From positions 1-21,956 of the IMG/VR virus record IMGVR_UViG_3300017755_000131: a stretch of 21,956 bases of DNA, one strand, 5' to 3'. This document shows, piece after piece, positions 13,557 through 14,501 of this stretch. Both the position numbers and the translations under genes were made by a program. Source of the DNA: a virus. The notes under the pieces are model-generated. The model had not been told where the DNA came from, made no database searches, and saw nothing but the letters and a program-made list of their open reading frames with translations. How positions within the stretch are numbered: the stretch's first letter is position 1; the number at the start of each line of letters is the position of its first letter.

Positions 13557-13585
13557 CTTATACCACAAATGCTATATTCTGTCAA
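13557..13585 (-). promoter_or_regulatory. Strong sigma70-type promoter for primase-helicase
   Basis: TTGACA, 17 bases, TATAAG on the - strand, between the methyltransferase and primase genes. The -10 is followed by six bases and then the primase ATG, so the start site would fall on the ATG itself. It shares the TTGACAGAAT block with the promoters at 21768-21796 and 21835-21863. Confidence 0.75.
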
Positions 13586-14501
13586 GTCCTTCCGCAACTC
13601 CTATGGCTTTTCCTAACTGATATATTATTTGTGGCACCACTGCATTGCCTAATGATTTAAGTCTGTGTGCCCTATTGGAAACCCCATGAGCCACTCTACC
13701 CACATCGGGTTCAAGCTCCCACCAGCTTGGGTTGCTAATGTCGGTGTATTCCTCTTGGCTTCTGAAGGACTCCTGCCATTGTCCTTCCAACATCTGCTTG
13801 TTGGTGTCTGATACATCTTCACTGCCAGACTTAGAGGTGTTCCCCCTTGTGCGTACTTCTTCTTCCTGTCTGATGTATCCGTTGTTGCTGTTGGCCAAAG
13901 CATTTTCTCGTGTGCCACCTGATCGTTCAGACTTATTGGCATACCCTTGTCTATCTTCATCTTCATTCTCTTCTTGCTTGATGCCCCTCGATTGCAGTGT
14001 GCGTCTGGAGTTCTCCATACTTTGTCCGATGAAGAACGTTCTGTATCTTTGGTGCGGTGCGTTGACGCTAGCAGCTGGAAGTACGAAACATTTTGTTTGG
14101 AAGCCTTCTTCTTCCAAGTCAGAGTGCACTTGTTTGAATACCATGCCGTCTTCGATGTTAATAATTCCTCGCACATTTTCTCCAATAACCCACCTTGGTT
14201 TTGCTTCTCTAATGACTCGTAACATTTCTGGCCAGAGATAGCGATCATCACTTGTGCCTTTTCTTTTTCCTGCAAATGAGAATCCTTGGCAGGGGAATCC
14301 TCCAACGACAACGTCAGCTGTTGGGGGATTGTAGGTTTTGACATCTTCATGTATTGGTACTCCTTTAAAGTTTTTAGTTAATATTTTTTTGCAGAACTTA
14401 TCCATCTCTACAAACTGTAGAGTCTCAAAGTATCCCGTTGCCTCAAGTCCAAGTGCGAAACCACCTATGCCTGAGAATAAATCTATTGTTGTTAATTTCA
14501 T
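13572..14501 (-). CDS. dcm: C5-cytosine DNA methyltransferase
   Basis: 309 aa from the ATG at 14501 (AGGAC in front), preferred to a GTG at 14561 that would include a terminator hairpin. All key motifs are present: I, DLFSGIGGFALGLE (7-20); IV, GGFPCQGFSFAGKRKG with catalytic Cys71; VI, GENV (107-110); VIII, QRYRTFFIG (151-159); X, LGNAVVPQI near the C-terminus. The target-recognition region (about 162-265) is Ser/Asn/Glu-rich and low in hydrophobics, unlike a typical folded TRD. It transfers methyl groups to cytosine in a sequence that cannot be read here, probably protecting phage DNA from restriction. Base composition is visibly richer in GC than its neighbours, suggesting transfer. Another 233-codon frame lies inside it. 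Confidence 0.9.
   Translation of the reverse strand: MKLTTIDLFSGIGGFALGLEATGYFETLQFVEMDKFCKKILTKNFKGVPIHEDVKTYNPPTADVVVGGFPCQGFSFAGKRKGTSDDRYLWPEMLRVIREAKPRWVIGENVRGIINIEDGMVFKQVHSDLEEEGFQTKCFVLPAASVNAPHQRYRTFFIGQSMENSRRTLQSRGIKQEENEDEDRQGYANKSERSGGTRENALANSNNGYIRQEEEVRTRGNTSKSGSEDVSDTNKQMLEGQWQESFRSQEEYTDISNPSWWELEPDVGRVAHGVSNRAHRLKSLGNAVVPQIIYQLGKAIGVAEGLDRI
13649..14350 (-). CDS. Overprinted ORF inside the methyltransferase gene
   Basis: 233 codons on the same strand in another frame, wholly within dcm. AAAGGAG (14360-14366) lies nine bases before its ATG, an ideal ribosome site. The frame resembles a family often annotated beside phage dcm genes: WYSNKCTLTWKKKASKQN, then FQLLASTHRTKDTE, then repeated (W/Y)xTP units (WRTPDAHC, LWPTATTD, YQTPTSRCWKD), and finally GGSLNPMWVEWLMGFPIG. 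The N-terminal half overlaps conserved methyltransferase motifs, so some likeness to other phage ORFs is forced by dcm itself. The second half, opposite the low-complexity TRD, looks more like a folded protein than the dcm frame does. Function unknown. It may be a real overlapping gene or a conserved shadow. Confidence 0.4.
   Translation of the reverse strand: MKMSKPTIPQQLTLSLEDSPAKDSHLQEKEKAQVMIAISGQKCYESLEKQNQGGLLEKMCEELLTSKTAWYSNKCTLTWKKKASKQNVSYFQLLASTHRTKDTERSSSDKVWRTPDAHCNRGASSKKRMKMKIDKGMPISLNDQVAHEKMLWPTATTDTSDRKKKYAQGGTPLSLAVKMYQTPTSRCWKDNGRSPSEAKRNTPTLATQAGGSLNPMWVEWLMGFPIGHTDLNH

Follow-up and report, generated by a model that had tools for sequence, protein, structure and literature searches.

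Overlapping frames in a phage dcm gene as the probable two chains of one C5-cytosine DNA methyltransferase

The dcm locus and its second frame

The DNA analysed here (the window) is the 21,956-nucleotide stretch of IMG/VR virus record IMGVR_UViG_3300017755_000131. It carries a gene annotated here as dcm, whose product we call alpha, and its neighbours encode a DNA polymerase, a DnaB-like helicase and a primase, which places the locus in a phage replication region. A second open reading frame, whose product we call beta, begins with ATG, runs for 233 codons to its stop and lies wholly inside dcm at an offset of +1. The features of the locus are collected in Table 1.

Table 1. Features of the overlapping gene pair in the 21,956-nucleotide window
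Feature	Position	Strand	Evidence
Alpha (dcm frame), 309 aa from its ATG, with C5-methyltransferase motifs I-VIII and X but without motif IX	13572..14501	-	PF00145 2e-48; HhaI similarity; motif counts
Beta (second frame, +1 offset), 233 aa, phrog_1008 family; putative recognition part and motif-IX-like element	13649..14350	-	
AAAGGAG, putative ribosome site of beta, nine bases before the beta ATG	14360..14366	-	
Alpha motifs IV-VIII stretch (alpha residues 76-155), purifying selection on both frames	14035..14276	-	alpha 0.12, beta 0.30
Alpha near-neutral linker (residues 162-268) opposite the constrained C-terminal half of beta	13698..14018	-	dN/dS alpha 0.90 [0.80-1.03], beta 0.29 [0.22-0.37]
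Beta motif-IX-like element LNPMWVEWLMGFPIGHT	13664..13714	-	motif counts, profile match
Alpha motif X region (residues 276-300, LKSLGNAVVPQ); constraint back on the alpha frame	13602..13676	-	alpha dN/dS 0.11

A sequence-only reading of the window had drawn attention to a 233-codon frame at 13649-14350 inside dcm, preceded by AAAGGAG nine bases before its ATG, and this was confirmed on the minus strand. The ending LNPMWVEWLMGFPIG and the WYSNKCTLTWK block that it had described are both present in beta. Of the three (W/Y)xTP units that it had counted, two are exact (WRTP and YQTP), while the middle one is WPTA. It had also taken the dcm frame opposite the second half of beta for a low-complexity target-recognition region. 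That stretch (dcm residues 166-275) is indeed polar and of lower complexity, with D, E, K, R, N, Q, S and T making up 66% of it against 42% in residues 1-165, but the selection analysis below suggests a linker instead. On the opposite strand, an antisense open reading frame of 169 codons with a TTG start (window 13732-14241, plus strand) is open opposite the overlap, possibly as a by-product of dual coding.

Distribution and openness of the second frame

Used as a tblastn query, the second-frame protein matched 58 phage records, four plasmid records and 549 IMG/VR stretches. The second frame was open at +1 in all 83 loci first examined, with an identity similar to that of dcm; at one of these loci (L001), the second-frame alignment extends a few residues beyond the stop. 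When IMG/VR loci were fetched with the dcm protein as the query, 80 of 80 carried the open second frame at +1. Scanning bacterial genomes with the second-frame family yielded 80 more loci, from taxa that include Bacillota, Proteobacteria, Bacteroidetes, Acidobacteria, Nitrospirales, Synergistaceae and Verrucomicrobiia. In 78 of them, the N-terminus of dcm overlaps at +1; the remaining two have no dcm N-terminus beside the match, and both matches lie near the end of the available stretch. Within the main family, alpha and beta were therefore never found apart (80 of 80 dcm-fetched loci and 78 of 78 bacterial loci with dcm), in locus sets picked by similarity searches that partly used the overlapping sequence.

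The number of stops to be expected in the second frame was obtained by shuffling synonymous codons within each dcm gene, which keeps both the dcm protein and its codon make-up. Across 106 genes, this predicts 4.8-14.6 second-frame stops (mean 9.9), and 11.2 for the dcm gene of the window. None was observed in the window or in any of the 106 genes, while the third frame over the same stretch contains 24.6 stops on average.

A few annotators have called both genes, as was done for gp51 of Paenibacillus phage Redbud (‘g50 internal gene’) and K1ind2 ORF28 (‘Mte8-like’). Alpha alone is listed in N15, R9.1 and most of the plasmid records examined. In Escherichia phage N15 (L263, 653-1648), gene 58, described as a ‘possible cytosine-specific modification methylase’, contains an unannotated +1 frame with an IX-like element.

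A few loci depart from this general picture. Compared with that of phage SG4, the pair of Mycobacterium phage Llama (L265, 522-1281) is one base longer; its alpha is split into gp74 and gp75, and its beta frame is broken too, so that both chains seem to have been lost together. In the uncultured phage KM23-C739 (L167, 1501-2337), alpha is seemingly frame-shifted early (the 80-aa cds25), and the annotated methyltransferase, cds26, is the beta frame. An uncultured Roseovarius (OX638333.1, L216-L220) carries five copies of the pair with equal match scores at separate sites on one chromosome, reflecting either repeated prophages or an assembly artefact.

The start of beta is less uniform than its reading frame. 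AAAGGAG and the beta start are identical in the near relatives L004, L005, L008 and L010, but only the nearest relatives strictly retain a strong Shine-Dalgarno, and a clear ribosome site is not universal. More broadly, a Shine-Dalgarno core precedes the first beta ATG in 70 of 106 genes, compared with 45% of third-frame ATGs and 3% of in-frame ATGs. The AAAGGAG and ATG kept in near relatives point, indirectly, to a possible translation of beta from its own start.

Selection in the two frames

Following the logic of overlapping-gene dN/dS methods, we sorted substitutions by what they do in each of the two frames, using simple distance corrections and no tree. Regional dN/dS values were obtained from 44 disjoint pairs with bootstrap intervals. 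Such a codon-level comparison of homologues had been proposed in the sequence-only reading, and its outcome favours a functional second frame. For pairs at 60-99% dcm identity, dNN/dNS in the second frame is 0.13-0.38. Conservation of 4-fold degenerate dcm sites at 60-75% identity is 0.79 inside the overlap, against 0.48 outside it. In the main family, the second frame showed neither the stops nor the neutral evolution that might have spoken against it.

The regional values reveal how the two frames share the gene. In dcm residues 1-40, which lie outside the overlap, the second frame gives the expected null value of 0.86 [0.63-1.18] and dcm gives 0.12. Across motifs IV-VIII (residues 76-155), both frames are constrained, at 0.30 [0.24-0.35] for the second frame and 0.12 [0.09-0.15] for dcm. 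In residues 162-268, the second frame remains at 0.29 [0.22-0.37], while dcm rises to 0.90 [0.80-1.03]; around motif X (residues 276-300), dcm returns to 0.11 [0.08-0.16]. Selection is thus handed from the dcm frame to the second frame and back along the gene, and a 25-residue scan shows the same switch of constraint. Restricting the comparison to the window and its four nearest relatives gives noisy values (0.44 for the alpha linker and 0.26 for beta), in which the second-frame constraint persists.

Where the recognition domain of dcm would be expected, the dcm sequence therefore seems not to matter while the second frame is constrained, and this dcm stretch is probably a linker rather than a target-recognition region. 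The choice originally posed, between a second protein and a widely annotated family that is a mere shadow of dcm, falls to the second protein, and overprinting is strongly supported by the conserved frame, its motifs and purifying selection. The choice was nonetheless too narrow, as over the second half of the overlap it is dcm that is the passenger. Dual coding, the passing of selection between the frames, the obligate co-occurrence of alpha and beta and the way the motifs are divided between them are established here by computation.

Motif IX and the identity of beta

In an ordinary C5-methyltransferase, a single chain continues from motif VIII into the recognition part and motif IX. PCQ (motif IV), motif VI and motif X occur in every one of the 106 dcm proteins, but motif counts found motif IX in none of them. 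The similarity of the window alpha to HhaI is confined to residues 3-158. A monomeric C5-methyltransferase of the PF00145 type is consequently rejected as a description of this locus: alpha lacks motif IX, its recognition stretch is neutral, and the Pfam match of the dcm frame ends at 248 of 324.

The missing motif has a candidate counterpart in beta. A motif IX profile built from five ordinary methyltransferases scored best at LNPxWVEWLMGFPxGW in 86 of 93 second-frame proteins. No enzyme examined combines an in-frame motif IX with an open +1 frame carrying an IX-like element. Phage methyltransferases without an in-frame motif IX (590B, Ivi, SW5, KPN U2874, Soft, SG4, N15 gp58 and K1ind2) have the open frame and the element, while those with one (E. 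coli Dcm, PfAC20, MM1, Javan123 and phiKp_17) have 12-19 stops in the +1 frame.

Profile searches place beta in the PHROG family phrog_1008 (‘DNA methyltransferase’), with matches of 1.5e-24 for the window beta, 1.6e-74 for Redbud gp51 and 1.1e-64 for K1ind2 ORF28. The label gives no role and is silent on members that lie inside dcm. Two mycobacteriophage proteins, Zaka gp90 and Catdawg gp5, are also members of phrog_1008 (at 9e-86 and 5e-59, respectively; hhalign of the pair, E 2.9e-10), and in each of them the IX-like element precedes motif X within a single chain. Their matches to the ordinary-methyltransferase profile phrog_116, at 381-491 (gp90) and 438-482 (gp5), fall directly after the catalytic part covered by alpha; ordinary methyltransferase chains cover approximately 207-499.

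Other searches with beta returned little. Pfam and NCBIfam gave no notable match to the second frame, and solved structures searched by sequence and by profile gave nothing meaningful. AlphaFold produced low-confidence models of beta alone (pLDDT 65 and 62), and Foldseek matched them to no solved fold; in a viral library, a beta model had only weak matches, the best of them partly to likely relatives. Since hhalign of beta against five ordinary methyltransferases gave no signal, the link between beta and motif IX is drawn from position, pattern and the bridge formed by Zaka and Catdawg. The motif pattern, the mutual exclusivity and this bridge make beta best read as the recognition and motif-IX half of the same enzyme. 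The second protein is thus probably the missing target-recognition and motif-IX part of the methyltransferase, and not an unrelated product. In addition, the number of xTP units in beta rises with beta length (r = 0.79), which may indicate a modular recognition region.

A methyltransferase of two overlapping chains

Very likely, the overlapping frames specify a single C5-cytosine DNA methyltransferase made of two chains, in a layout like that of M.EcoHK31I. Alpha would provide the cofactor-binding and catalytic domain (motifs I-VIII), continue into a neutrally evolving linker and end with motif X. Beta, made from its own start and putative ribosome site, would supply target recognition and motif IX, presumably docking where the small domain of alpha is missing to form a heterodimer. 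Alpha alone should then fail to recognise or methylate DNA, and methylation would be carried out by the alpha-beta pair. The phage would probably use this activity to protect its own DNA from host restriction.

The main competing explanation is that beta is an overprinted protein with another job, such as anti-restriction or regulation, which merely lies inside dcm, and that alpha works alone. The lack of a Pfam match or a solved fold for beta is compatible with this, as is the fact that its first half faces the catalytic motifs and does not belong to an ordinary methyltransferase. We nevertheless consider it improbable, because alpha never has a motif IX of its own and its recognition stretch is neutral. 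Moreover, an independent gene should be lost from some dcm genes or relocate, while no separation of alpha and beta was seen in the main family, and Zaka gp90 and Catdawg gp5 tie the beta family to the C-terminal half of methyltransferases. It is less probable still that programmed frameshifting joins alpha and beta into one fusion chain. The fixed +1 offset would suit such a mechanism, and a path from alpha to beta and back to alpha would yield motifs I-VIII, recognition, IX and X in order. However, two opposite shifts would be required to regain motif X, the AAAGGAG start is identical in the four near relatives, and M.EcoHK31I is reported as two polypeptides in the account given in PMC3404938. 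That the second frame is a non-coding shadow of dcm is refuted, to near certainty, by the stop counts, the 4-fold site conservation and a beta constraint that is found exactly where dcm is neutral, even though coupled conservation would be expected for some beta motifs, those that face conserved motifs of dcm.

Comparison with known systems

The beta gene of EcoHK31I lies within the alpha gene, in another frame. M.EcoHK31I, a C5-methyltransferase that recognises YGGCCR, has been described as two polypeptides: motifs I-VIII, motif X and the predicted recognition domain belong to the large one, motif IX to the small one (Lee, Kam and Shaw 1995, as cited in PMC3404938). The phage pair resembles it in layout, with motifs I-VIII and X in the large chain, a motif-IX-like element in the small chain and the small gene inside the large one in another frame. 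The two differ in the recognition domain, which is predicted in the large chain of M.EcoHK31I according to that account; in the phage pair, the corresponding large-chain stretch is neutral and the second frame is constrained.

M.AquI (CYCGRG) is likewise a natural two-chain C5-methyltransferase, split after motif VIII (PMC3404938). Its small chain has both IX and X, whereas motif X of the window pair is in alpha, so the split is not of the AquI type. An AquI-like arrangement with the same beta family does occur in Zaka (gp91/gp90; L164, 1486-2485) and Catdawg (gp6/gp5; L169, 1468-2419), where alpha ends after motif VIII and partially overlaps a beta-family protein with IX and X. This arrangement may represent a step on the way to the full overlap.

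Two further candidates were considered and rejected. The hidden HNH endonuclease of an actinophage methylase (the ShiLan domain, PMC11855218) is also an out-of-frame protein inside a phage methylase gene. It is, however, an inserted homing element, while the window overlap covers core catalytic motifs; no HNH family match was found in Pfam, PHROGs or NCBIfam, and the layout differs. The second candidate, orf14 of Streptococcus phage MM1 (L163, 1643-2068), lies inside orf13 and is annotated as a ‘C5 methyltransferase beta subunit’. It seems to share only the name with the beta described here, because orf13 has its own motif IX and orf14 is not matched by the beta profile.

The two-chain layout therefore has a precedent from 1995. 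Its breadth, and evidence for recognition in beta, were not found in the literature searched, nor was a description of this phage family as overlapping methyltransferase subunits (the search lay mostly outside subscription papers and did not include REBASE).

Implications for phage methyltransferases

It is likely, if somewhat less so than the two-chain reading of the window pair itself, that two-frame, two-chain enzymes are encoded by a widespread class of ‘dcm’ genes, found in phages and prophages across many bacterial phyla. In these, the specificity subunit would be hidden in the +1 frame, a neutral alpha linker would lead to motif X, and the recognition domain would lie in the small chain, unlike the prediction for M.EcoHK31I. 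If so, the alpha gene alone, which many records list as a complete ‘DNA cytosine methyltransferase’, should yield an inactive enzyme without a target, and specificity must be sought in the usually unannotated frame. Such genes further offer a clean natural example of coding constraint passing between frames and returning within one gene, useful both for testing overlapping-gene methods and for studying the origin of split enzymes.
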